Assembly (NCBI GenBank): GCA_018659585.1
Contig: JABJMC010000006.1
Coordinates: 62,001 to 126,000 of the forward strand
Source of the DNA: Candidatus Peregrinibacteria bacterium
GTDB lineage: Bacteria > Patescibacteriota > Gracilibacteria > UBA1369 > UBA12473
Direction: 5' to 3'
Length of the DNA stretch: 64,000 nt
Below the pieces are notes generated by a model. It worked only from the letters and a program-made list of their open reading frames with translations, ran no database searches and was not told where the DNA came from. Made by a program: the position numbers and the translations under genes. Positions within the stretch are counted from its first letter, which is position 1; every line of letters starts with the position of its first letter. Below are positions 3,474 through 63,998 of the stretch, piece after piece.

Positions 3474-4850
<1,377 letters not shown>

Positions 4851-4858
4851 GCCGCCGT

Positions 4859-5527
4859 ATGGAAATTATTTGGCACGGACAATCTTGTTTCACTTTAAAA
4901 GGATCAAAAGCTACAGTTGTAACTGATCCTTACGGTGATATTGGTCTTAAACTCCCTAGTTTGAAGGCCAATATTTTAACTGTGAGCCACGATCACGAAG
5001 ATCATAATAATGTGGCCGCAGTTGAAGATAATCCTCAACTTTTTGATTGGCCCGGCGAATACGAAGCCAATGGTGTTATGATGACCGCTTTAAATGCTTT
5101 TCATTACCGTAAATCCGAAGAAGAAGATGAAAAAGCAGCCGCCCGTGGAAAAACATTAATTTTTCACTTTGAAATCGATGGCATAAAAGTTTGTCATTTA
5201 GGAGATTTAGGACACAAATTAACAGATGATATGGTCGAAGCAATCGGCGATGTTGATATTTTATTAATTCCGGCTGGCGGCGATTCAACCATTGATCACA
5301 AAACTGCTCACCAAGTTATTGAACAAATCGACCCCCGCATAGTTATTCCTATGCACTACAAAATTCCCGGCTTAAAAGTCGAAGCTGATTTACAAGACGT
5401 AGAACCTTTCTTAAAAGAAATGGGAGTTTCTTCCAGTGAATCTCAAGAAAAATTAGAAGTCAAAGGCCGCAGCTCACTCCCAGAAGCCACCACTGCTTAC
5501 GTGGTTTTGGAGGCCCAACTGGGATAA
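4859..5527 (+). CDS. Metallo-beta-lactamase-fold hydrolase (UlaG/YtkL-like)
   Basis: 222 aa from MEIIWHGQSCF, chosen over the track start at 4823 because this is where the family begins and because the promoter lies between the two. The metal-binding motif is SHDHEDHNN; further ligands are probably His in CHLGDLGH and in IPMHYKI, with Asp in HLGD. GEYEANG follows, as in the COG2220 group of zinc-dependent hydrolases. The substrate cannot be told from sequence; relatives hydrolyse lactones, phosphodiesters or N-acyl lipids. The protein is probably cytoplasmic. The stop codon overlaps the first bases of a dispersed repeat element. Confidence 0.85.
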   Translation: MEIIWHGQSCFTLKGSKATVVTDPYGDIGLKLPSLKANILTVSHDHEDHNNVAAVEDNPQLFDWPGEYEANGVMMTALNAFHYRKSEEEDEKAAARGKTLIFHFEIDGIKVCHLGDLGHKLTDDMVEAIGDVDILLIPAGGDSTIDHKTAHQVIEQIDPRIVIPMHYKIPGLKVEADLQDVEPFLKEMGVSSSESQEKLEVKGRSSLPEATTAYVVLEAQLG

Positions 5528-5583
5528 ATATGGTCTAGTTTTCAGGTTGCAATTCACTCCCGGGAGTGAATTTTTCTCTGTAA
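5526..5583 (+). repeat. Dispersed palindromic element, copy A
   Basis: It begins AAATATGGTCTAG, continues TTTTCAGGTT (5539-5548), then a perfect 22-base palindrome with core CACTCCCGGGAGTG centred at 5561.5, and TTTTTCTCTGTAA. Copy B at 10318 shares the flanks almost letter for letter but has a different palindrome. TTTTCAGGTT, palindrome centre and CTGT have identical spacing in copies A, B and C. Here it follows a stop codon and could also act as a terminator (hairpin plus T-run). Confidence 0.8.
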
Positions 5584-5787
5584 TAGCTGTCAATGGGTTG
5601 CGTTATTATTAAATCAAATCATACGTGACCGTATGCGGTGAATCTACAGGTTGAAAAATGGCAAAATCACATCCAATCATCACTTTTAAAACCCCCATCT
5701 TCCATTCACAAAAATTTAATTTTTTATTCATTTTCCGTTCATTTTTTTGTTAAGTTTTCGTAATGGGTGATGTGGCAGGATGAAAGC

Positions 5788-6180: not shown

Positions 6181-6255
6181 GTCCCCGTAGTTCAATGGAT
6201 AGAACAAGACCCTCCTAAGGTTTAGATGTAGGTTCGACTCCTACCGGGGACACCA
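6181..6255 (+). tRNA. tRNA-Arg (anticodon CCT)
   Basis: The acceptor stem GTCCCCG (6181-6187) pairs with CGGGGAC (6245-6251), followed by A and an encoded CCA (6253-6255). The D arm GTTC...GAAC, the anticodon loop CTCCTAA and the T arm AGGTTCGACTCCT are complete. The anticodon CCT reads AGG. It is the only tRNA seen in the window. Confidence 0.97.
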
Positions 6256-9330: not shown

Positions 9331-10263
9331 TCAAGGGGTGTCAATGCTATGCAAAACTAGCATGTTTGTACAGCTTCTGCCTTCCCCAAAATCTTCATCG
9401 ACCATTAAGTAATGTTGTCCATTTTTATCATAAAAAAATCCTTCCGAAGCTATCCCAGTATCAAGTCCAATGGCTTTTTGAATATTAAAATTAGAGGTTT
9501 GTTCCATAACTTGAAGAGCTTCACCGTAAGTCATATTTTCAGTAAAATTCACAACTCCCTTCTTTTCTCCTCCTTCCACAAAGAAGCGGAGTTCATATTG
9601 GAGTGGATTAGAAGATGAAAATTTTCCTCCTGGACGAATGAACGAAGTTTGTTGAAAGAGTGACCCCCCGCTTTGTTTGAGTTGACCTAAAAATTCTTGA
9701 AAATTAGAAAGTTGATTCAAGTATTCAATTCTTGGGTTACCGTTTTCAATTACTAATAAACCGTTAAGGCTTGATTTAGGAGTAGCTTGGCCGACCATTT
9801 CACCATTCTCCAAGGCAACGCCTTCTATTTGGCGATCTCCTCCTGGCGCTAAAAATGCTCCGGCAACTATTACAGCTTGCCCATTGAAGTCTTTTTCAAT
9901 TGCTGCAAAATTAGGCCGACCATTAGTATCAAAATATTGGGGATGTTTGTCGTTTGAAACAAAATCTGCTCTAGCCTGAGGATCTTCCATTTCAAAAAAG
10001 CTACCTACCAATTTTTCTGGTTCTCCTTCAAATGTCGCAAAAATTTTATAGCGAGAAAATCCTGGGCCCATATTGTGGTCAGGCATAACTTCAATCCGAG
10101 AATCAACAACTTGGCGTTGAGGAATGGTTTCAGCTGCTTCAGCATCAGAAATAATCAATCCCTGCAGAGATTGCAAAGAGTTTTTTGCAAGTTCGAGTGG
10201 ATTCAATTCGTCCCCGGTAGATCCGCTTTCAAAGTCATTCATTTTTAAGGTTTTAAATTCCAT
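9331..10263 (-). CDS. Orphan protein, soluble
   Basis: About 310 aa. The track starts at a GTG (10275); ATG 10263 (MEFKTLKMNDF) is preferred, and ATG 10242 (MNDFESG) is also possible because AACCTTAAAA precedes it. There is no signal peptide or membrane span. The sequence is rich in Gly, Asn and Phe and has beta-strand-like stretches (YKIFATFEGEPEKLVGSFFE, YELRFFVEGGEKKGVV). A GLLVIENGNPRI segment recalls phosphodiester glycosidase-type proteins, but the similarity is too weak to use. The C-terminal GQHYLMVDEDFG could bind a metal. The gene diverges from the SOS operon. Confidence 0.7.
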   Translation of the reverse strand: MEFKTLKMNDFESGSTGDELNPLELAKNSLQSLQGLIISDAEAAETIPQRQVVDSRIEVMPDHNMGPGFSRYKIFATFEGEPEKLVGSFFEMEDPQARADFVSNDKHPQYFDTNGRPNFAAIEKDFNGQAVIVAGAFLAPGGDRQIEGVALENGEMVGQATPKSSLNGLLVIENGNPRIEYLNQLSNFQEFLGQLKQSGGSLFQQTSFIRPGGKFSSSNPLQYELRFFVEGGEKKGVVNFTENMTYGEALQVMEQTSNFNIQKAIGLDTGIASEGFFYDKNGQHYLMVDEDFGEGRSCTNMLVLHSIDTP

Positions 10264-10317
10264 TAATAATAACACAAATTGGCGATTTGGTCAATGAAAG
10301 GGGCGATTTTCCTTGCG

Positions 10318-10375
10318 AAATATGGTCTAATTTTCAGGTTAAGAGTTGACGCATGCGTTAACTTTTCCCCTGTAA
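10318..10375 (+). repeat. Dispersed palindromic element, copy B
   Basis: AAATATGGTCTAA, TTTTCAGGTT (10331-10340), the near-perfect palindrome AGTTGACGCATGCGTTAACT centred at 10353.5 (one position is a G-U pair in RNA), then TTTTCCCCTGTAA. The flanks match copy A at 5526; the palindrome core TGACGCATGCGT matches copy C at 36410. It lies between two divergent genes, so it is not simply a gene-end terminator here. Confidence 0.8.
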
Positions 10376-10414
10376 AACATTTCGCGCCAATTTATAGTGT
10401 CAACTAAAAAGATA

Positions 10415-10664: not shown

Positions 10665-11282
10665 ATGGAAGACCTTACTAAAAAGCAGAAAAAAGTTCTT
10701 AAATTTATTGAAAAATATCAGTGGGAAAATGGTGCTTCTCCAACAATCCGCGAAATGAAGGAACGGTTCGAGGTTAGCTCCGATAATAGTATTTTAAAAC
10801 TATTAAACGCCCTTAAGAAAAAAGGCTATATCAAAAAAGACGACACTCCGCGCGGAATTAAAATGCTTTCTAGTGTTCGCGAGCGGATGGATGCGGCCGC
10901 CGCAATCATTCGTGTGCCTTTGGTCGGAACAATCCCGGCCGGCGGCCCCGTCGCAGCCGAAGAAAACACCATCGAGACTTACGAAATTGGCAAAGGGCTT
11001 ATGCCTAGTAGCAAAGGGGCTTTTTTGCTCCGAGTAACCGGCAACAGCATGATCGATGCTGGAATTTACGAAAGCGATATGGTTATGGTTGCTCCAGATC
11101 AAAATGTTCGCTCCGGTGACATTGTAGTCGCCCTTATTGATGGCGAGAATACCGTCAAAACGTACATTAACGAAAAAGGTAAAGTTTATTTGCAGGCCGA
11201 GAATCCTGAATACGAAAATATTTATCCAACTGAAGAACTTCAAATTCAGGGTGTGGTTACCGGCCTTATCCGAAATTATTAA
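10665..11282 (+). CDS. lexA: LexA repressor, SOS regulator
   Basis: 205 aa, the usual length. The protein represses DNA-damage genes until activated RecA triggers its self-cleavage. Residues 1-66 form the winged helix (LTKKQKKVLKFIEKY, SPTIREMKERFEVSS, KKGYIKKDDTPRGIKML). The cleavage site is Ala92-Gly93 in IPAGGPV, the nucleophile Ser128 is in GNSMID, and the general base Lys165 is in VKTYI. It is the second gene of an operon with dinB downstream, the classic lexA-dinB layout. The start is preceded by CTAACCCATCC rather than a Shine-Dalgarno word. Confidence 0.97.
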   Translation: MEDLTKKQKKVLKFIEKYQWENGASPTIREMKERFEVSSDNSILKLLNALKKKGYIKKDDTPRGIKMLSSVRERMDAAAAIIRVPLVGTIPAGGPVAAEENTIETYEIGKGLMPSSKGAFLLRVTGNSMIDAGIYESDMVMVAPDQNVRSGDIVVALIDGENTVKTYINEKGKVYLQAENPEYENIYPTEELQIQGVVTGLIRNY

Positions 11283-11346
11283 TTCTCGCGCCATAAGGCG
11301 CAAACTTCCTTAAACGTCACGCGCCAGCAGGCGCGAATCTACAATT

Positions 11347-12474
11347 ATGAATGAAACCCCTATTTTGCATGTTGATGCAGACGCCTTTTTTGCATCTGTT
11401 GAACAACGACTCGAACCTAAATATCGAGGGAAACCAGTGATAGTGGGAGGAAGTCATCGCGGAGTGGTTAGTAGTGCTAGTTACGAAGCCCGTCAATTTG
11501 GGATTCACTCCGCGATGCCTATATTTAGAGCTCGTAAACTCTGTCCACACGGGATTTTCATTAAAGGTAGTCACCACACTTATGCCGAATTTTCCCAGGC
11601 TATGTTTCAGATTTTCAAAAAATACACTCCTACCGTAGAAATGACCTCCATCGACGAGGGCTATCTTGACCTTACCGGTACCACCAGGCTTCACAAAGCC
11701 GCTTACCACCAAATCGCCGCTCATCTTCTTTGCGAGGTCGAAAAATCCCTGGGGATTACTCTTTCCGGTGCTCTTTCTTCCTGTAAAATTGTTTCCAAAA
11801 TTGCTTCATCGCGTTTTAAACCACGACGACTTTCTTGGGTTCACGCGGCTCACGAAAAGCAATTCTTGGCCTCCTTGCCCCTCAAAGAAATGCCTGGAAT
11901 CGGCCCCCAAAGCCTCCCTAAATTTACCCGCCTCGGTCTCCAGACAATCGGCGATTTGGCCGAACTCCAGTTCGAGGCCATGTGGCAGATGTTTGGTGGC
12001 TACGGCATGGTTCTTTGGGAGCGCGCCAACGGCATTGATCATCGCCCGGTTTCACCACACGCCCCTAAACGAAAATCAATTTCCGAAGACAAAACTTTCC
12101 CTATTGATCTCGATTCCCCTCAACTCCTTCTCGAGGAATCTTCTCGCATGCTCAAAAAACTGTGCTACCAAATCCGCAAAAATAATCGTTTTGCCGCTAC
12201 TCTCACTCTCAAAATCCGTTACTCAGACTTTGCCACTTACACCCACCAACGTTCCCTCGACCAACCTTCTAACGTTCCCTGCGGCCTCCTTCCAACCCTC
12301 AAATTACTTCTTAAAAAACGCGATTCATCCCGCCGCGTCCGCCTGCTCGGAGTTAGTCTTTCCAACCTCCAGAGCCAAGTTCAGCTTGAGCTCTTCGGCC
12401 GCAGCGCAAAGAGCCAACATCTCGAGCAGTCGTTAGATACACTCCGCAAAAAGTATGGACTTGGGGTTATTTAG
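11347..12474 (+). CDS. dinB: DNA polymerase IV, Y-family translesion polymerase
   Basis: 375 aa. This low-fidelity polymerase extends past DNA lesions. The catalytic carboxylates are Asp10 in HVDADAFFASVEQ and Asp103-Glu104 in SIDEGYLDLTG; the steric-gate region FFASVE and the nucleotide-contact YEARQFGI are intact. GALSSCKIVSKIASS replaces the more common GIASNKLLAKIAS. The helix-hairpin-helix thumb (MPGIGPQSLPKFTRLG) and the little-finger domain follow. It sits 64 bases after lexA and has no promoter of its own that I can see. From about 11650 onward the codons are C-richer than in neighbours. Confidence 0.95.
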   Translation: MNETPILHVDADAFFASVEQRLEPKYRGKPVIVGGSHRGVVSSASYEARQFGIHSAMPIFRARKLCPHGIFIKGSHHTYAEFSQAMFQIFKKYTPTVEMTSIDEGYLDLTGTTRLHKAAYHQIAAHLLCEVEKSLGITLSGALSSCKIVSKIASSRFKPRRLSWVHAAHEKQFLASLPLKEMPGIGPQSLPKFTRLGLQTIGDLAELQFEAMWQMFGGYGMVLWERANGIDHRPVSPHAPKRKSISEDKTFPIDLDSPQLLLEESSRMLKKLCYQIRKNNRFAATLTLKIRYSDFATYTHQRSLDQPSNVPCGLLPTLKLLLKKRDSSRRVRLLGVSLSNLQSQVQLELFGRSAKSQHLEQSLDTLRKKYGLGVI

Positions 12475-36003: not shown

Positions 36004-36960
36004 ATGAAACGAAATTTTATTAACCCCAAACAATTAACCGATTCCGAACTTTACAAGCTCTGCCAAGAATACGGCGGTAACGCGCGTCAGTGGATGCGTA
36101 AATTTGCCGGCCTTTTGCCCGAAGTCTACCGCCGCCGATTATATCGTCGCCATGGCTGCTCTTCTATTCACGAATTTGCGGCTAAAATGGCGGGGATGAG
36201 TCATGCTAACGTCGATCGCATTTTACGTTTATCTCGAAAACTAGAAGACAAGCCAACCCTCCGTGCTCAACTTGAAAACGGCGAACAAAGTTGGGCTAAA
36301 ATCGAAAAAATTGCTCATATTGCGACCCCTGAAACTGAGCAAGAATGGGCCCAAAAAATCGAAAAATTTCCCCAACAGGTTATAGCTCAAATTGTCCAAG
36401 TCGAACGAATTAACAGATTAGAAAGTGACGCATGCGTCAAAACTCAACCTGAAAAATGGGCCACAATTTCCTTCCCTGTTAGCCCAAAAGTTGAATTAAA
36501 AATGCGTCAATTTAAACAAAAATATGAAAAAGAAACAGGAGAAACACTTTCTTGGAATGAAGTTTTTGAAAAAGTGTTCAAAGAATTAGAAAAATCTCCT
36601 CAAATTAAAAAACAAGCCACTATCCAACTTTGCCCAGACTGTATAAAAGAACGCGCGCGTAAAAAAGCCGAAAACAATCAAGTTGGAAGAACGATCCCAA
36701 CCGAAATTCAACGCCTAATCCAAACCCGCCAACAAAACAAATGCAACACTTTAAATTGCAACCATCCCATAAAGGAATTCCATCACGCTAAGCGTTTTGC
36801 ACTAAACCAGAGCCACGACCCAGACTTCATAGTTGGCCTCTGTAAAAAATGTCATAATTTAGAGCATAGTAATTGGCAAATGATCGAAATATCAGCCATC
36901 GATCAAAAGGTTCTAAACTATCGGCGTGAAGTAAGTATTGAGCCGCGGGCTGGGCCGTGA
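36004..36960 (+). CDS. HNH endonuclease-family protein
   Basis: 318 aa. The N-terminal 140 residues are helical and basic, resembling the DUF222-type region that precedes HNH domains (QWMRKFAGLLPEVYRRRLYRR, AAKMAGMSHANVDRILRLSRKLEDKP). The C-terminal domain has paired zinc cysteines (LCPDCIKERARKK, NKCNTLNC) and the HNH centre IKEFHHAKRF...GLCKKCHNLEH. It is probably a DNA endonuclease, as free-standing relatives in restriction or mobile contexts, but no partner is present. Codons for residues SDACVKTQ are a copy of the dispersed palindromic element (36410-36456). The start is preceded by GCACCCCAAA. The stop is TGA. Confidence 0.82.
   Translation: MKRNFINPKQLTDSELYKLCQEYGGNARQWMRKFAGLLPEVYRRRLYRRHGCSSIHEFAAKMAGMSHANVDRILRLSRKLEDKPTLRAQLENGEQSWAKIEKIAHIATPETEQEWAQKIEKFPQQVIAQIVQVERINRLESDACVKTQPEKWATISFPVSPKVELKMRQFKQKYEKETGETLSWNEVFEKVFKELEKSPQIKKQATIQLCPDCIKERARKKAENNQVGRTIPTEIQRLIQTRQQNKCNTLNCNHPIKEFHHAKRFALNQSHDPDFIVGLCKKCHNLEHSNWQMIEISAIDQKVLNYRREVSIEPRAGP
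36410..36456 (-). repeat. Dispersed palindromic element, copy C, inside the HNH gene
   Basis: Read on the minus strand: TTTTCAGGTT (36455-36446), the perfect palindrome TGACGCATGCGTCA centred at 36432.5, then ACTTTCTAATCTGTTAA. Distances from the palindrome centre to TTTTCAGGTT (13.5) and to CTGT (16.5) are the same as in copies A and B. It encodes about 15 residues of the linker between the N-terminal region and the rest without disturbing the frame. Confidence 0.75.
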
Positions 36961-54230: not shown

Positions 54231-57200
54231 TTATTCTGTAGAAATAATATCAGTAACCGAGACTTCATTGCTAATAGAAAGTACTTGAGTATTCGCCATG
54301 TCCATAATTGCGGCAAAAATTGCATCACCAGGAATTAAGTCAGCCGCGTTTTCAATGCTTACCGGACAAGGACAAGAATCACATTCATAGGTAATTATAT
54401 AAATTCCAGGATCTACATCTTCGATTGCATTTTCCTCTTCTATTACACTTTCTTCAAGATCTTCCTCCGTGGCAATTTCTTCGTCGCCCTCGTCGCCGGC
54501 ATAATCATCCTCTGGCGTACTAATTGGTTCGGTGCCGGCGGCCACTTCAGCGCCATCATAAACACCACCATCATCCGTGTCTGGGTCATATGGATCTGTG
54601 CCGTAAATGTTTTCTTCATCCGCGTCAGTTAAGCCATCGCCATCTGTATCATCATCACTTGGCGTACTAATTGGCTCGGTGCCGGCGGCTATTTCATCCC
54701 CATCAGAAACCCCACCATCGTCAGTATCTGGATCATATGGATCTGTATAATAAACATTCACTTCATCGTAATCAGATAAGCCATCGCCATCCGTGTCAAT
54801 ATCTGCGTAACAATTATAGAAATCCAGCACCCTAGAGGCGATCACCACAAAATCATATCGCGTTAGCGCCTCGGAATGATAGCGTGCTTCATCTTCGGTA
54901 ATTACATAAATTTCACCCTCACCCAGCGTCGTGTCATTTACTAAGTACGGACCTACATCTTGCGCTACTTCTAAATAAGGAAGATACCATGGCTCTCCCA
55001 CTGTTACTTCACTAATATCAATCACACCCAGCGTATTCAAAGCTTCCAAAATAATCTTGGAGCCCTCGGCGCGACTAATCGTAATATCTGGTTTAAATGG
55101 CGCCATGCCCTCTTCATTTAATTCACCCAAATAACCATAAATAAATTCTTGGAAGAAAGATTCTTTAGTAATTGGGTAGTACCATTCTTCAGTGTCCAAA
55201 ATATCGTAGAAAACATTTGGTAATTCATAAGCTTCGTCCCGCGGAATAATACATAGCACTCCCAACAAAATCTTAGTAAATTCAGCTCTTGTAATGTATT
55301 GGTCTGGCATAAAGTAAAGTTCGCCATCAATTTCATAACCATCAATAATTCCCAACTCCGCTAAATTTAAAATTTCATCGTAATACTCATCATCCGCTTC
55401 TATGTCTATAAAACTAGAATCATCAGCTATTAAAGGATCAGTGTCTCCGTAAACTTCTTCGTAGTCCGTGACACCATCATTGTCAGTGTCTGCGTCATTT
55501 AAATTTGTGCCTTCCGCCGCTTCTTCGGAATTAGTAAGCCCATCACCGTCTGCATCGTCATTACCATCATCCGGGTCATATGGATTCAACCCAGACTGTA
55601 GTTCCTCTAAATCAGTAATTCCATCGCCATCCGTGTCTGTATAAGCCGCATCCTCATCAAGAAGATCAGAAACATCTTCTTCTAAGCCGAGTTCTGAGCT
55701 CTCCATGAAGTCTACCTCGGATTCATCATTTGAAGAGGCTCGTGGTGCAATGTAAATCTCGAGCCAGTCGCCTCCCACGGTAATTACAATTGGTTCCGCA
55801 TCTTCTTGGTCCGCGTCTTCACTAATTGAGCCTAAGCTCTTAACATCCAGTGAAATATCGGTTAAACGGTAAATATTTCCGTCAGTATCAATCACAGCCC
55901 AACGTTTTTCGGATTCATCAGCAATGGCCACGCCACCGGTAAAGAGTGGTTCATTGGACGGGATTTGTTCTAAGTGTAGAGTTTCGGGTAAATTAACATC
56001 TTTAACGTGCACTCCCACCATTTCGGCGGTGCTTTCTAAATCATATTCAACCGAATCCTCATCAATCTGCACATCCACGTTAGAATCCGGAGTAATAAAT
56101 ATATAAAGCAAGCGTTCTTGAGTGGCCACATCAACTAGAGCAATTCTAGTTGGCCATGGTAATTCCGCACTGTGAACTTGCACTTCTACGGAATCATCCA
56201 AAATCGTTATTTCACCAGTTTCGGGGTCAATCGAAGCTACTTCTTCGTAGAGTGAGTTATAAACCACCCAACCCTCGGAAAGCTCTAAATCATCAACCAC
56301 AAACGCGCCATCATCATCGGTATAGTACTTACTATTTGTATCGGCTGAAGGCGTGACAATTAACTCAAAAATCCCATCTCTTTCCCGCGCAATAACTATT
56401 GGAATTTCAGAATCTTGGGGATCAATTTCACCATCCACGCTACCAGAGCGGCTCGAAGAAACACTCAAAGCAACGTCTGGAACGTAAACACTAACATAAG
56501 CCGTAACTCCCGAAGAATTTCCAGCTTCATCTTCTACCCAGAGCTTGTATTCACGAGTTTCTAAATCATCAAACGGACCTACTTCCATGGTTGGATCACT
56601 CCAATCATTAGTCTTAAATCCATCGCCATCTAAATCTGTTAATGGATCATCATCCGCGTAATAATCCGCATCATTTTCACTGTCTCCATCACCATCAGAA
56701 TCAGTTTCTAAGTCAGTGTCATAGTAGTATTTAATAATATCGCTCGAAGTATCAAACGAACCACCACCATCAATAGTTATGGTTTTAAATACCGAGACTT
56801 CGTAATTAGATCCAACATTCGCGTAAGGGGGATCATCGTCCGCACAAACTTGCGGTGCAAACAATGTTGTCTCGCCCCAGGTGCCACGCGTGCTATCTAT
56901 TTGAATAGAGCGAATTTGGGAGTAGTAATCACCATTTTCTAAGGCAATATCTGCGGCTGGGTTGTCCGCGTCTGGAACTAAGTGCCACGCAAAATCTCCG
57001 GGTTGTTCAAACGTAGTTTCTACCTCGGCCACTGTGGAGTAGTACGAGACAGTTAAAGAATCATCATAAGTAACCAAATCTTTTTCAAACAGCATCATGC
57101 CTTCATAAATAGTTTGTGTTTCTTCGGATTCTTCCAAACCAATGACCTCTACTTCTCCGCTATTAACTCGCAGGGTGATTTCACCATAATAAGCATCCGA

Positions 57201-60200
57201 GATTACAAATAACATGTTTTCTGGCAGTTCAAGCGAGAATTCTCCACCCTGTTCTACTAAGGTGATAGTTACTTTACTATCGTCTAAGGTGTGAACTTTG
57301 TAACCTGTTTCAACTGACATTTCTCCGGAAGATTTAATAATTGTTCTAGTTAATAAATCAGTAACTAGCTCGGCTTCGCCACCAAAGTCAGTCACTCTCA
57401 TAACAGGATAGCTAAGTTGCGGTAGAGATAATTGAGTGCCGGTTTGAGCCACAATTTCCGCGTCACTGTCAGTATAAGTCACTGTAATATCTGCATCCTC
57501 GGCTTTTAATAAAGTCCCACTCGATAAATCATCCTCGGTTTCCAAGACCACATTATCTTCTTCGTTTAATAAATGTAAGAAATGAGTTTGCTCTGGTTCA
57601 TCTAAATCAAAGTCTGGAATCGCCTCGAAATAACGCAGCTCATAACCAATCACTTCATCCGCTGCCAACCAGGAAACAGCCGCTTCTTCATTGTCATAAC
57701 CATTAGCCCGGTAAATATCCACAGCCGGGGCCTCTGGGAGTAAATCTTCCAAACTTACAATTTCTGGGGCATCTGTTACATAGTCATAACCATCATCTTC
57801 GGTAAAGTTTTCTTTAAGGAAAATATCTGAATCATAAGCATAGAAAATATCGTCATCATCATCATTATCCACGTCCGTAAATATTAGATGAGATTCTTGG
57901 TCGGCATCCGCTGTGTTGGCAATTAAACGCTCATTTACACCATCCACAGAATTATAAATAAAGATTCCTTTATCTAGTACAATCGGGGAACCAAGATCAT
58001 TACTACTAGCTTCATCTTCGGTGGCATCAACTAAATAACGCTGCTGTTCTTCTTCTAACTCTTCTAAATTAGTAGCAAACGGAGTGTCTTTCCCAATTGT
58101 GGAGAAAGTATCTACTAAATAATCGCTCATAGCTTTGACCGCGGTCTCGGTACTAAATACATTAGTATCCGCCTCACGAGAAACTAGGAACGTGCTATTA
58201 ACAGGTTCAAAGCCGCCTTGCGATCCACTTTCATCAACCCAAGCTAAGAAACCATCCCAATTGTTTTCGGTCTCTAAACCAAGTTCTAGAGAATCAGTTT
58301 TAAATTGTTCATCTTCAAAGTAAGCGAGTAAATCATTGCGAAGTTCATCCACGTAAACATCATCGAGTTCCATTAAATCACCCGCGTAGTAACTGTTTTG
58401 AATATCATCAAATTGAGTCTCAATTTCAGAGTCTGTAAATGATAGGAATCGTTCTTCGGCTTTGATGTGATGTGTGTCGGGGAGTGAGGCAACATAAGTT
58501 TCCTGTTCAGCAGCAAACTCTTCTAAATTGCGCATTTCTACCTGCCATTGCGCAATATAAGGACTCACCATTGGATGATTACGTAAATTATCAATCATGG
58601 CCGTTCCATCACCATCTAAATCAACATCAATATCTGGCGAAGCAACTTCATCTACCGCATCCATGCCTTCTTCTACAAATTCACCAGCCATATCAAATGG
58701 TGTTTGCATCCCTTCATTAGCTAATTCCACCAGGTCAGTCACTAGACTATTTGCTGTATCCGCGGCCAATTCTACTAGTTGCACAATGCCATCAAAACTC
58801 ATTCCTAAATTCACGTAAGCAATTATTTCGATAGTGTCTTTAAAGTCTGGGCCAATGCTTGGGAATTGGAAGTTAACACTTAAATCAAACGGCCACACCA
58901 CGTCCAACGGTCGTTGGGTCATATTTTCAATCTGCGTCTTAAGCATTGCTTCATCCGTTGGGATAATAGCGGTTTGCACCAGACAAATTATTTTCATAAT
59001 CGCTTTCAAAATTTTGAGAGTCACTTGAACCACATTTGGCAAATCTGGAATCTTTGGTGGAGGAGGAATGTCTGGCAGATCCGGGATTGGAATACCAGGA
59101 AGTTCCGGTAAATCAGGAAGTGGAGGCGGAGCTGGTAATAAAGGAATTGTTGGTAAATCCAAAGATATCGATGGATAGTCTGGTAGCGGAATTAGTGGTA
59201 ACTGAGGAATTAACAGCGGCTCAGCCACAAAATTAAGCTCCGGCCAAGTCACGGTTAATCCGGCTTGGATTTCGGAAATATCAAATACAATGTCTGGCCA
59301 ACTCGGAATTGCTATTATGGGAGGCTCTGGGATAAAGGCAAACAGCTTAGCTAAGAGTTCATACAAACTAAAGCGATCATTTGTACATTGATCACACGAA
59401 GCCTGATAATCAACTACCAATGAGAAAATTAATTTCCAGGATTCAAAAGCTTCGGCCACGTCATAAACCGCCTGAATCCATTCGAGAATTCGAGCACGAT
59501 TAAGTAATATCCAGCCGCCAAACAGATTAATAATTGCATCTAAGTAACAAATAATTTGTTTAATATAAAAAGCTTCAACTCGGCGCCATTTAAGCAGTTC
59601 TTTCGGGAAATCTTGATAGTCTTCTAAGACTTCAATATTTTGTTCCACACTTGAAAGCAAGTCTTCTAGTTCTTGAATGGCGTCTTTAGCCGAGTCTTCC
59701 AAGGCGTCGCCATCCCATTCCCACGGCTTCACACTAGTATCAATGCCCCATTTAGTTTGGACCTGATCCTGCATTCCTTCTACCCACCGTTGGAAGAAAA
59801 ATTTCTGTTTCATGATTTCATCTTGAGTGATCCACGGAATTTTAAAGGTTACCTCTTCAGTTTCAATTCGAAGGAGCGGGAATGAACCTAATTGCGCCAA
59901 AATTTTATCTAATCCACGTAAGTCAGCCTTTTCAATTTTAGCTACATTTTCTGGTTTAAAAGCCCCAACAATAGACTGTGGATCCGGATAAATAATATAA
60001 ATATCCGGTAAGTCCGTTAGTTTGGTAATTAACTCTTCCCCCTGTTTACGGAACCATTCCGCAATTGGTTTGGGGAAACCGGGCACCCGAACCTTGCCCC
60101 CCGAATCAGAGGCGACCGCATACGATCCCAGGTTATAATTAATAACTCCACCACTTTCACTTCGTTCACCTCCTCCTGATAGCTTTCCAGCCAAAGAAGT

Positions 60201-63200
60201 TACTTTATTAGCGCCTTCTTGAATAAAAGCCGTGGCTTTGGACATCACCGCGGACAAGGCATTATTAATGGCGTCACAAACTCCCAGGGCCTCAAATAAA
60301 GGGATAGCAATGGACCAACATTTACCAGCCATATATGGGTTAACACAAACTGATAAAGTAGTTCCCAAAGTTAAAGTAATCGAGAAGTAAACTCGAACCG
60401 CTGTAGACCCTTGGAAAGGGGATGGTGGCCAGAACGGAATAACACTTGGCACTGCCGCGGCAAAAATTGGAATATGCACTGGATCAAACATCGATGCTGG
60501 AATGCCCATGGCATTTATTGGCCCAGGGACTAAAAAAGCGTAATTAACTGGCATCGCAATACAACCACCACCACACATTAATTGGGCCATCAAAGACTCC
60601 AGGCCATCGGCTACCATATTAGCTACTCCTTCTGCAATTTTATAACCAGCAGCAGCTCCAGCCATTATATCGGTAACACCCACATCATCACTATTAGTCA
60701 CATGATCAGTATTTGCATCCCATAAGTTAATTGCAGCCTCATTCCCTAATTCATTAATAATAGCCGCAATATCTTCCTCTTCCTCCTCATCAGGTTCCAT
60801 AAAATCAGGAACATCATTTTCATTTTCATCTAGCTCAAAATCAAATCCAGCCTCTGCTAAAGCATCAATCGCATCTGTGGCTTTTACCTCTTCTTCGGCC
60901 GCAGAAGTTTGTTTAGTGTAATTAACTTTTGTAAATCCATCCTCGGAATAAGTTCCATTAGAATAAAAGAAAATCATTTGTCCCGAAGGATTGTCCTCTG
61001 GAGAAGCCCCAATATCCGGCAAATAATCATCTGGATAACTAGTATCCAAATCATCACCTACAAAAATATTAACCACTGGCATGGCCATTCCAGACACAGT
61101 TCCTTGGTAAGAGATTTGCGCTGAATCACCAGCCCCAAAATTCAAACCACTAACCACAAATGGCCTCAAAGCTTGTCCACTTTCTATTACTTGCCAGCCC
61201 GCACATTCCGCTCCAGAACAGTCAAAACTATCCCAATCTAATTCAATCATGCTCGACACCACATCTGTTACAGACAAGCCAGTTACCGGTGTGCCACCAG
61301 AATTTGTAATAGTAATAGTATATTCCACGATATCGCCATCTTCTAAATTACCGCCATTTAAGTCCGAAACATATTTAGTCGAAGTGTATAAGTTTTCATC
61401 TAAATCAGCGTAAAGGAAAGCCACAGTCTCCGTCACCACAGTCTCATCCATCTCATAAATCAGGGTGTCAGAACTGCTCTCAACCATAGATGACAATTCA
61501 TCCATAAAGTCAGCGTCAAAACCACCAGTTGAAAAAGTCGACATGGCCTCTGCAAATTTATCTTCGTAATCCGGCGATGATTCGCCAGTTGCCACGGGGA
61601 ATTCTTTGTACCAACCATCATCTTCCGGGGATAGAGGGTCTTCCTCGGGCATCTCATTGTAATAGATCAAAATTTCTTCGATCAGATCTGTTTCTTCATC
61701 CATTTGTAAGCCAACATCACCAATTTCCTGGCCTTTGGTTTGCATCACACCATCTTCATTATAAAAGACATAAATCACACCATTAATATCCGAAATAACC
61801 AAGTCCGGATAATCATCGTAGTTCATATCATGGGCCACGATTTGTTTAATTTGTGAACCATCAATTTCTAACTCTAGGTTTTCGCGTACAAAATTTGAAT
61901 CATAATTAGTGTATTGATAAATACAAATTTCACCAGCAATACAAGCTTCATTTGTCGCTATCACCAGATCAGTTTGACCATCTTGATTAAAGTCCGCTTC
62001 ATCCAAATCAATAATTCCATTAGTTAGATTCATTAGTAATCCCTGATTTTCAAAGCGAGGATAAGCCTCTTTATTTTCTAGTAACTCAACGGCTCCGTTT
62101 TCAAAAGCCACTAACAAATCATCCAAACCATCGGAGTTGTAATCCAAAGTTGTCATGTCTTGAATAGTTTCATTACCCGCCAAAATCAATCGTCCTACTC
62201 CAGACGTAAAGCCGGTGCTAGACACAGTTTGCGGATTCCAATCTGTTAAACGAATAGTTGGATCACCCAAAACAATCCCAATATCCGAAGCATAGTACTG
62301 ATTTGCTTCACCCACAGTTGAGCCATCCGCAAGCAATAACATAAATTTATTATCGCCTTCAAAACCAATTCCCTGCGCATCACCAGCTGTTTCTAACGAA
62401 CTGTTTCCAACTCCTGGCTTCTGACTATTCGCAAGAGTGGTTGTTTTATCCACCACAAACATTCCAGTGGGGGAGGCAGAAGAGTTTCCGCTATAAGCCG
62501 TGGAATAACCATATTTATTGGAGTTTATTCCGGTGAAATAAACACCTGGTGTTAATAAAGTCCAATCTTCCCAGGCAAATTGCTCGTCTAATTGGGTTAC
62601 ATTATTTTCAAAAGTTTGTTTAAGCAATACGCGTAAAACTGAGCTTTCACCCAACATCAAATCATAACCAAAATATTCATAATCTTCGTTAACTTCTAAA
62701 TAATAGGTGGGATCATAAACCTGAATTTGGCCATCTGGTTCTAAGCGAATAATCTCGTCACCATCTTCCAAAAAGCTCACATTCCCACGGAATTGTTTAA
62801 CTTCGTAATTAGTGTTTTCCGTTAATTGTTGAACGTAAATACCATCATCTTCGGCCGTACTTAAATCATAATCATTCTCCACAATATAGAAATCAGAACT
62901 ATCCAAAACAATCATTCCTTCGGCCACGGTAATCTGAGAAAGAAGATCTTTAATTAAAAAGCGAGTTGGGAAAGCCATACTATTAGCGGCCACTAATTTA
63001 AGATCCACAGCATTGCCATCTAAGACCGATAACTTACCTTGTGAATCCATCAGAGACAGTTGGGAGTTAGGTTCTGGATTAGCTGTTAAACTAACCGAAG
63101 CTTGAGTTTTACCAGTAAAAGTAAACCACCCAGCCCAGTAATCTTCTTGTGTTACTTCTCCAAATGGCGCCCCTAGCAAGGCCGCAAACAACACCTGCGG

Positions 63201-63998
63201 CTCTATACTTTCAAACGAAGTTCCTTCTAATTCTAAAACCGTATCCATGCTTAGCGTTCCAGAAACAGCGGTTCGATCACCATTGGTTTGACCAGTGGCC
63301 ACAATATTAACCGGCCCTGTTAAATCATCGGCCGTTACATTAAACGAACCTAATCCGCTAGAAAGTGTTAGTGAGCTAGAATTAACATCCCCGAATTCCT
63401 CGGACGCATCCGTGACTCGCATAGTGACCGTAGTCGAGGAATCAGTGTAAACAAAATTATCATAAACATCATAAGCTTTTACAATTACTTCTGCGGATTG
63501 ACCGGTTGGAATAACGCTAGAATCAGACGAAAGTTCTAAGCGATAAGTGTCATTTGGTAATAAAGTAATTGGGAGCGTTCCGGGATCAAAGCCAATCATC
63601 GAAGCCGTTACGTACGCCGTGCCAGACACAGTCGAAGCCGCAAAATCAACTTCAGCCTGCCCATTACTTATTTCCGCGGTTATCACACTTTCTTCATCTG
63701 TTAAAGTCCCATACAAATCATCCACCATCGAGAACGTCACACTGCCATTAAAGCCTTCTAGCGGCGCCCCAGAATCATCCAGAACCGCCCAAACAGTAAT
63801 CGTAGTTGTTGTCGCTCCATTAGCCGTCATTTCATCATTTGCTGTAAATAATTGCAGTTCAATATTGTCGTAAACTCCAATGTTCAAAGTTTGTTCAATG
63901 TTTTCCAAAGCCACTGTAATAGTGACGGTTCCTTCATCATCCCCAGAAGTTAAATCAAAGTTAAATCCACCTTCGTAAATCGTTACCTGGGTGCCAAT
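54231..63998 (-). CDS. Giant surface protein with S-layer, DUF11, FG-GAP and TSP3 modules (5' end beyond the window)
   Basis: At least 3255 aa. The track starts at a GTG (63914), but the frame stays open to the right edge (TIYEGGFNFDL, GDDEGTVTITVALENIEQ), so the start is missing. Using track numbering: filamin/invasin-like Ig domains 1-240; FG-GAP-type repeats (DYNSDGLDDLLV, DFNQDGQTDLVI) about 585-760; a DUF11 domain about 850-950; a Gly/Ala-rich part and helices 1090-1550; a Pro-Leu-rich stretch (LPDLPELPGIPIPDLPDIP) about 1570-1620; a PKD-like domain 2350-2480; TSP3 calcium repeats 2755-2820 and 3040-3110, flanking two S-layer homology domains 2830-3000 (YITRAEFTKILLG, ISRAEGSKIIL). SLH domains bind cell-wall polymers. 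Confidence 0.9.
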   Translation of the reverse strand: MGTQVTIYEGGFNFDLTSGDDEGTVTITVALENIEQTLNIGVYDNIELQLFTANDEMTANGATTTTITVWAVLDDSGAPLEGFNGSVTFSMVDDLYGTLTDEESVITAEISNGQAEVDFAASTVSGTAYVTASMIGFDPGTLPITLLPNDTYRLELSSDSSVIPTGQSAEVIVKAYDVYDNFVYTDSSTTVTMRVTDASEEFGDVNSSSLTLSSGLGSFNVTADDLTGPVNIVATGQTNGDRTAVSGTLSMDTVLELEGTSFESIEPQVLFAALLGAPFGEVTQEDYWAGWFTFTGKTQASVSLTANPEPNSQLSLMDSQGKLSVLDGNAVDLKLVAANSMAFPTRFLIKDLLSQITVAEGMIVLDSSDFYIVENDYDLSTAEDDGIYVQQLTENTNYEVKQFRGNVSFLEDGDEIIRLEPDGQIQVYDPTYYLEVNEDYEYFGYDLMLGESSVLRVLLKQTFENNVTQLDEQFAWEDWTLLTPGVYFTGINSNKYGYSTAYSGNSSASPTGMFVVDKTTTLANSQKPGVGNSSLETAGDAQGIGFEGDNKFMLLLADGSTVGEANQYYASDIGIVLGDPTIRLTDWNPQTVSSTGFTSGVGRLILAGNETIQDMTTLDYNSDGLDDLLVAFENGAVELLENKEAYPRFENQGLLMNLTNGIIDLDEADFNQDGQTDLVIATNEACIAGEICIYQYTNYDSNFVRENLELEIDGSQIKQIVAHDMNYDDYPDLVISDINGVIYVFYNEDGVMQTKGQEIGDVGLQMDEETDLIEEILIYYNEMPEEDPLSPEDDGWYKEFPVATGESSPDYEDKFAEAMSTFSTGGFDADFMDELSSMVESSSDTLIYEMDETVVTETVAFLYADLDENLYTSTKYVSDLNGGNLEDGDIVEYTITITNSGGTPVTGLSVTDVVSSMIELDWDSFDCSGAECAGWQVIESGQALRPFVVSGLNFGAGDSAQISYQGTVSGMAMPVVNIFVGDDLDTSYPDDYLPDIGASPEDNPSGQMIFFYSNGTYSEDGFTKVNYTKQTSAAEEEVKATDAIDALAEAGFDFELDENENDVPDFMEPDEEEEEDIAAIINELGNEAAINLWDANTDHVTNSDDVGVTDIMAGAAAGYKIAEGVANMVADGLESLMAQLMCGGGCIAMPVNYAFLVPGPINAMGIPASMFDPVHIPIFAAAVPSVIPFWPPSPFQGSTAVRVYFSITLTLGTTLSVCVNPYMAGKCWSIAIPLFEALGVCDAINNALSAVMSKATAFIQEGANKVTSLAGKLSGGGERSESGGVINYNLGSYAVASDSGGKVRVPGFPKPIAEWFRKQGEELITKLTDLPDIYIIYPDPQSIVGAFKPENVAKIEKADLRGLDKILAQLGSFPLLRIETEEVTFKIPWITQDEIMKQKFFFQRWVEGMQDQVQTKWGIDTSVKPWEWDGDALEDSAKDAIQELEDLLSSVEQNIEVLEDYQDFPKELLKWRRVEAFYIKQIICYLDAIINLFGGWILLNRARILEWIQAVYDVAEAFESWKLIFSLVVDYQASCDQCTNDRFSLYELLAKLFAFIPEPPIIAIPSWPDIVFDISEIQAGLTVTWPELNFVAEPLLIPQLPLIPLPDYPSISLDLPTIPLLPAPPPLPDLPELPGIPIPDLPDIPPPPKIPDLPNVVQVTLKILKAIMKIICLVQTAIIPTDEAMLKTQIENMTQRPLDVVWPFDLSVNFQFPSIGPDFKDTIEIIAYVNLGMSFDGIVQLVELAADTANSLVTDLVELANEGMQTPFDMAGEFVEEGMDAVDEVASPDIDVDLDGDGTAMIDNLRNHPMVSPYIAQWQVEMRNLEEFAAEQETYVASLPDTHHIKAEERFLSFTDSEIETQFDDIQNSYYAGDLMELDDVYVDELRNDLLAYFEDEQFKTDSLELGLETENNWDGFLAWVDESGSQGGFEPVNSTFLVSREADTNVFSTETAVKAMSDYLVDTFSTIGKDTPFATNLEELEEEQQRYLVDATEDEASSNDLGSPIVLDKGIFIYNSVDGVNERLIANTADADQESHLIFTDVDNDDDDDIFYAYDSDIFLKENFTEDDGYDYVTDAPEIVSLEDLLPEAPAVDIYRANGYDNEEAAVSWLAADEVIGYELRYFEAIPDFDLDEPEQTHFLHLLNEEDNVVLETEDDLSSGTLLKAEDADITVTYTDSDAEIVAQTGTQLSLPQLSYPVMRVTDFGGEAELVTDLLTRTIIKSSGEMSVETGYKVHTLDDSKVTITLVEQGGEFSLELPENMLFVISDAYYGEITLRVNSGEVEVIGLEESEETQTIYEGMMLFEKDLVTYDDSLTVSYYSTVAEVETTFEQPGDFAWHLVPDADNPAADIALENGDYYSQIRSIQIDSTRGTWGETTLFAPQVCADDDPPYANVGSNYEVSVFKTITIDGGGSFDTSSDIIKYYYDTDLETDSDGDGDSENDADYYADDDPLTDLDGDGFKTNDWSDPTMEVGPFDDLETREYKLWVEDEAGNSSGVTAYVSVYVPDVALSVSSSRSGSVDGEIDPQDSEIPIVIARERDGIFELIVTPSADTNSKYYTDDDGAFVVDDLELSEGWVVYNSLYEEVASIDPETGEITILDDSVEVQVHSAELPWPTRIALVDVATQERLLYIFITPDSNVDVQIDEDSVEYDLESTAEMVGVHVKDVNLPETLHLEQIPSNEPLFTGGVAIADESEKRWAVIDTDGNIYRLTDISLDVKSLGSISEDADQEDAEPIVITVGGDWLEIYIAPRASSNDESEVDFMESSELGLEEDVSDLLDEDAAYTDTDGDGITDLEELQSGLNPYDPDDGNDDADGDGLTNSEEAAEGTNLNDADTDNDGVTDYEEVYGDTDPLIADDSSFIDIEADDEYYDEILNLAELGIIDGYEIDGELYFMPDQYITRAEFTKILLGVLCIIPRDEAYELPNVFYDILDTEEWYYPITKESFFQEFIYGYLGELNEEGMAPFKPDITISRAEGSKIILEALNTLGVIDISEVTVGEPWYLPYLEVAQDVGPYLVNDTTLGEGEIYVITEDEARYHSEALTRYDFVVIASRVLDFYNCYADIDTDGDGLSDYDEVNVYYTDPYDPDTDDGGVSDGDEIAAGTEPISTPSDDDTDGDGLTDADEENIYGTDPYDPDTDDGGVYDGAEVAAGTEPISTPEDDYAGDEGDEEIATEEDLEESVIEEENAIEDVDPGIYIITYECDSCPCPVSIENAADLIPGDAIFAAIMDMANTQVLSISNEVSVTDIISTE

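Follow-up and report, generated by a model that had tools for sequence, protein, structure and literature searches.

Three short loci in a 64,000-nucleotide stretch of DNA from a Candidatus Peregrinibacteria bacterium (the whole stretch analysed here, referred to below as the window) hold different palindromes within one fixed frame, and the question that they raise is what kind of element this is and with which protein it is associated. The initial annotation saw in them a selected, dispersed two-fold element of the REP or MITE kind, a view supported by the analysis described below, and implied a RAYT or TnpA-REP partner, for which no support was obtained. The data point instead to a family of HNH nuclease-like proteins whose genes hold the palindrome, and it is almost certain that the palindromes are linked to this family.

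One frame with several palindromes

Exactly three matches to TTTTCAGGTT-N20..32-CTGT occur on the two strands of the window, where 0.04 are expected by chance, and none of 100 shuffles of the window reached three, which bears out the earlier report of three loci with a fixed frame. Copies A, B and C occupy one common 43-bp frame with the dyad centre 13.5 bases past TTTTCAGGTT and 16.5 bases ahead of CTGT, exactly the constant spacing first described. The flanks had been regarded as two separate fixed elements; their constancy holds but their independence does not, because CAG at one end of the unit and CTG at the other are equidistant from the centre of the palindrome and the flanks thus form part of the same dyad.

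Copy A (5539-5581, plus strand; palindrome AATTCACTCCCGGGAGTGAATT at 5551-5572) begins 12 bp past the stop codon of a metallo-beta-lactamase-fold gene (4823-5527), and its minus strand corresponds to the sense reading of the HNH genes. A tRNA gene (6181-6252, plus strand), identified with Rfam, lies about 600 bp away. Copy B (10331-10373, plus strand) is situated between an ORF at 9331-10275 (minus strand) and lexA (10665-11282, plus strand), and its dyad, AGTTGACGCATGCGTTAACT at 10344-10363, is the cognate of copy C and has one mismatched pair in the arms; the proposal that the arms change together while symmetry is kept is otherwise correct. The lexA-dinB pair (10665-12474) lies about 290 bp downstream of copy B, and the divergent gene at 9331-10275 is of unknown family; a link to DNA damage is possible. 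A LexA box was considered and rejected, since a single genome has several different palindromes. Copy C (36413-36455, minus strand; palindrome TGACGCATGCGTCA at 36426-36439) is not intergenic but lies within an ORF, 36004-36960, that encodes an HNH-like protein. The window also contains a very large ORF of 3227 aa (54231-63914, minus strand).

Further copies, sought as the initial annotation had suggested, are present in the assembly of this genome (G000; 1.41 Mb in 49 contigs), which has 11 in all: seven exact, and four with one or two mismatches in which palindrome and frame are intact, located on contigs C1, C6, C16 and C37 (one more there). The reversed exact pattern, used as a control, has no match in the same genome. 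Chance similarity or a single segmental duplication, to which the 12 bp shared before the unit by copies A and B only (the AAATATGGTCTA already recorded ahead of both) might have pointed, is refuted by the distribution of these 11 copies over six contigs with different flanks and with five arm sequences (CACTCCCGGGAGTG, CACTCTTAAGAGTG, CACCCCCGGGGGTG, GACGCATGCGTC and GTGCCCGGGCAC) in a single frame and with constant symmetry, and its probability is negligible. Copies A, L002, L011 and L017 are just past stop codons or between convergent genes, and the copies on C5, on C36 and at C37:141908 are, like copy C, intragenic, all in genes of the HNH-like family. Elsewhere on C37 a 32-bp perfect palindrome (L022, 1052-1083; TTCTTCAAAAAGAGGATCCTCTTTTTGAAGAA) is unrelated to the HNH-linked family.

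A family of HNH nuclease-like proteins

The gene that carries copy C (36004-36960, plus strand) encodes a protein of 318 aa, P0001, with a helical N-terminal region, a low-confidence interdomain linker in which the palindrome lies, a short helical middle segment and a C-terminal HNH zinc finger; the AlphaFold2 model as a whole has a pLDDT of 52. The residues invariant in the family (C247, C252, H260, H261, C280 and H288) correspond to the Cys and His ligands of an HNH/treble-clef finger, the assignment is reinforced by Pfam HNH (2.2e-5) and PHROG HNH (2.5e-7) matches, and the nearest solved structures to the finger are IscB HNH domains (E=8e-4). At the position of the HNH asparagine most members have F or Y, and some have N or D, and cutting by these proteins is uncertain for that reason. 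The segment following the linker bears a weak likeness to ribbon-helix-helix proteins (VAPB_antitox, 0.0058, in four members; RHH_10, 0.015), on which slender basis it may be a ribbon-helix-helix unit, and it is the similarity of this middle segment that best tracks palindrome similarity, with a partial r of 0.20 over pairs that are not independent.

Of 99 related genomes sampled, 71 have the family, with the highest number in G007 (44 profile matches, fragments counted); HNH genes that seem to be split at the linker in this genome were discounted as evidence, since many of the splits coincide with contig ends. This expanded family of an uncultured lineage has a name in neither Pfam nor NCBIfam, and two named relatives are a Candidatus Peregrinibacteria MAG and an unclassified MAG. 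Searches of viral contigs and of defence families gave no relative of, and no match for, the HNH-like protein.

Six paralogues were found in the genome itself by a search with P0001, and five of them have distinct perfect palindromes of 12-24 bp at the same point of the linker, that of L055 being AAAGTTATCGGCGCCGATAACTTT; in the remaining one, L054, the dyad is imperfect (AATTCACCGCATACGGTCA). What is conserved is the symmetry of the DNA, whereas the residues encoded there (FTPGGE, FTLKSE, SDACVKT, VIGADN) are not. Palindromes of at least 16 bp occur in 27 of 94 linkers, compared with three N-terminal and no C-terminal segments of equal size and 0.3 in shuffles. In all 53 linker palindromes of at least 12 bp the dyad is in codon phase 0, as in copy C, where it falls on a codon boundary (GAC GCA|TGC GTC), and within a set picked irrespective of phase or centre it does so in 30 of 33. 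The linker palindrome has a fixed position, orientation and codon phase across many genera; roughly one in two of the HNH genes sampled lacks a perfect palindrome of at least 12 bp.

Cognate addresses in genes and dispersed copies

The palindromes of the intergenic copies recur in the HNH genes of the same genome. Their mean best match to the genome's own HNH palindromes is 15.14 of 16, whereas random sets of the same size drawn from other genomes give 8.51 (p=0.0005, own genome). The address GACGCATGCGTC is shared by the gene of copy C and by dispersed copies B, L008 and L017, CACCCCCGGGGGTG by gene L056 and copies L010 and L011, and CACTCTTAAGAGTG by gene L057 and copy L002; the palindrome of copy A, CACTCCCGGGAGTG, has no exact partner among the HNH genes of this genome. 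The linker site of L054 is repeated beside copies A and L002, and near the former it is found as ATTCACCGCATACGGTCA (5626-5643, minus strand), identical to that of the paralogue. These two copies have about 80 bp more in common beyond the unit (window 5620-5665), a stretch that includes the second paralogue's site and so places two addresses side by side.

Among the 99 genomes, TTCACYC-type sites are found in three (G000, G042 and G055), each with an HNH gene bearing that palindrome, and the reversed control gave no site in any of the 99. The GTGTGT type is confined, among the genomes sampled, to G088 and G035, both of which have an HNH gene of that type. In genomes other than G000, G042, G055 and G088 the match between copies and own genes is weak (13.61 for own palindromes versus 13.01 in G007, 14.00 versus 13.21 in G058), since common addresses recur in more than one genome, and for further genomes too few HNH genes were sampled.

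The dispersed unit in related genomes

In relatives the dispersed unit is about 60 bp long and comprises a small conserved hairpin (H1) that a spacer separates from the variable palindrome (H2). Copies of the AGTCTGC type, from 15 genomes, align over about 60 nt as TGGCTT-N4-AAGCCA (H1), some 15 nt and H2, with 31.5 nt between the centres of H1 and H2, and a recognisable H1 is absent from some of them. HNH linkers, among them L081 and L079, have this H1, spacer and H2 in frame as well. The unit was also built into a covariance model (R1), another of the checks initially suggested, which has matches in 31 of the 99 genomes, up to 35 in one; all are among the 71 with the HNH family (31/71, a count not purely of dispersed copies, because some matches fall within HNH genes) and none among the 28 without it (Fisher p=2.8e-6).

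R1 does not match the copies of G000, in which the spacing differs, and their assignment to the wider family depends on the connection with the HNH genes and on the intermediates of G042 and G055, where the copies have an H1 like CTTGNCAAG at 32 nt. The intergenic copies of G000 have in common a TGTCAA/TTGACA box, at 5588-5593 for copy A and 10398-10403 for copy B, and the distance from box to palindrome is shorter in copy A than in other copies. A reading of the box as part of a -35/-10 promoter was rejected, there being no shared -10 downstream of it in this genome; for this reason, and because the box occupies the place of H1 in G042 and G055, it is possibly the counterpart or a relic of H1.

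Duplex site or RNA hairpin

The initial annotation had allowed for either a hairpin or a two-fold protein site. In a hairpin the innermost bases lie in the loop and are unable to pair, and in 33 HNH genes selected by the seven outer pairs only, both innermost pairs are complementary as well in 26. The mismatches are 32 G-T and 34 A-C, with no excess of G-T. Because the innermost pairs are complementary and no G-T bias is seen, we favour a duplex site, probably read by a symmetric dimer, over a hairpin. That the copies act as RNA, as transcribed terminators or small RNAs which pair with the HNH system or are bound by it, could be argued from copies A and L011, both of which resemble a hairpin and T-run 12 bp past a stop codon, and from the TTGACA box, which is upstream of the intergenic copies in the HNH-sense direction. 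Against this are the two results just given, the want of a common -10, and Rfam, which at the gathering score found only a tRNA in the window and no match for the copies; an RNA-level role is very unlikely.

Signs of movement and a proposed mechanism

In-frame palindromic copies are present in queG at two different positions in G058 (L190) and G075 (L186), and lipA has one in G059, in each case in a loop that is far shorter in relatives. Another insert is present in queG of G014. In G007 the copies have in common either H2 with the left flank or H2 with the right flank; to the left of H2, L180 shows no relation to the other copies, and from H2 rightwards it is nearly identical to two of them. 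Six elements of this genome (L180, L181, L265, L267, L268 and L270) are apparently chimeric, with flanks exchanged and H2 a frequent boundary, and some seem to bear longer remnants of HNH genes. These patterns suggest that H2 is a junction of flanks, as would follow from cutting or recombination at this point. No target-site duplication could be cleanly defined.

Insertions of this sort are also what would be seen if the element were a miniature of the Rickettsia (RPE) type, moved by another enzyme and able to enter any tolerant coding loop, the HNH linkers being mere hosts. The copies in queG and lipA accord with this, and RPEs show that in-frame insertion occurs (PMC10969869). Site and codon phase vary in queG, however, unlike the HNH linkers with their fixed position, orientation and phase across genera; addresses differ among paralogues and yet recur in dispersed copies of the same genome; and none of the 28 genomes without the family has a match to the element. 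Such passive residence is quite improbable.

A duplex site read by a dimer could also be an operator, in which case the HNH-like proteins would be DNA-binding regulators, perhaps not nucleases, the palindrome in the gene autoregulatory and the dispersed copies a small regulon. The palindromes do resemble the operators of dimers, a second near-copy lies upstream of genes L059, L067 and L077, the catalytic asparagine is lost in most members, and the possible ribbon-helix-helix segment is the part that best follows palindrome similarity. The perfect symmetry of 20-24 bp exceeds that of usual operators, though, copies A, L002, L011 and L017 have no gene to control in the conserved orientation, and copies are found within queG and lipA. 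A regulatory role is on balance unlikely.

The explanation that we prefer, to which we give about an even chance from these sequence patterns, is a REP-like mobile or recombination system in which the HNH partner carries its own cognate site. Many HNH genes, at least half of those sampled, carry one copy in the linker in a single orientation, H2 serving as an address that differs between paralogues, and copies of the same or nearly the same address are scattered through intergenic regions and through tolerant loops in other genes. A dimer of the HNH protein would bind duplex DNA at the cognate H2 and introduce a nick or a cut there or close by, after which the element would spread, and its flanks be swapped, through repair or recombination among cut copies. 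The element would in this way be mobilised in trans, as is thought for REPs by TnpA-REP, by an unrelated enzyme whose gene holds its own site. More tentatively, and with a probability somewhat short of even, multicopy HNH enzymes may be a new selfish class, each recognising a different perfect palindrome, which its own gene contains as both autonomous copy and address, and spreading address-matched miniatures over the genome by cutting or recombining at the palindrome, with specificity and address co-evolving gene by gene.

Comparison with known systems

A literature search of partial coverage gave no description of an HNH-palindrome system, in keeping with the initial remark that no described family has this layout; an earlier description is possible. 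HNH homing endonucleases are nuclease proteins that spread in many copies and have recognition-type sites, and in this the multicopy HNH-like proteins resemble them. A homing gene normally interrupts its own site, whereas here the gene contains the palindrome intact and the dispersed copies are intact as well. The DUF222/13E12 HNH repeat family of Actinobacteria is likewise multicopy with a helical N-terminal domain, and we know of no intragenic variable palindrome in it. The proteins described here share these general features but show no match to DUF222, either for P0001 or among the 25 families best represented for 36 members.

REP sequences and TnpA-REP provide a similar outline: short dispersed palindromes of several types per genome, each type cognate to one nuclease, for which mobilization in trans has been proposed (PMC8266576). 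In the present case, too, palindrome types are cognate to a protein of the same genome (15.14 of 16 versus 8.51), but as far as seen this partner is HNH-like and not a Y1 HUH transposase, and no Y1 transposase was found among the ten window ORFs scanned. The partner gene is highly multicopy here, while tnpA-REP is mostly single copy, and the palindrome is embedded in its coding sequence. Nor is the location strictly extragenic, with copies in HNH genes, queG and lipA; the palindromes have no unpaired loop, and in the aligned copies there is no GTAG or CGTC at the palindrome foot. RPEs are found in frame in protein genes (PMC10969869), as are the copies in HNH linkers, queG and lipA, but they are about 150 bp long, compared with a conserved unit of 43-66 bp here, and they reside in unrelated genes and have no known partner, as opposed to one gene family and one position. 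If the mobile reading is true, dispersed palindromes of the REP kind have evolved twice, the second time in association with a very different enzyme, and a protein gene can carry and diversify its own DNA address within a disordered linker. The family also offers natural pairs of enzyme and address by the dozen, so that the code relating protein to palindrome is directly testable. The system is REPtron-like in outline yet is not a REPtron, and it is RPE-like in its in-frame residence yet distinct from those elements.
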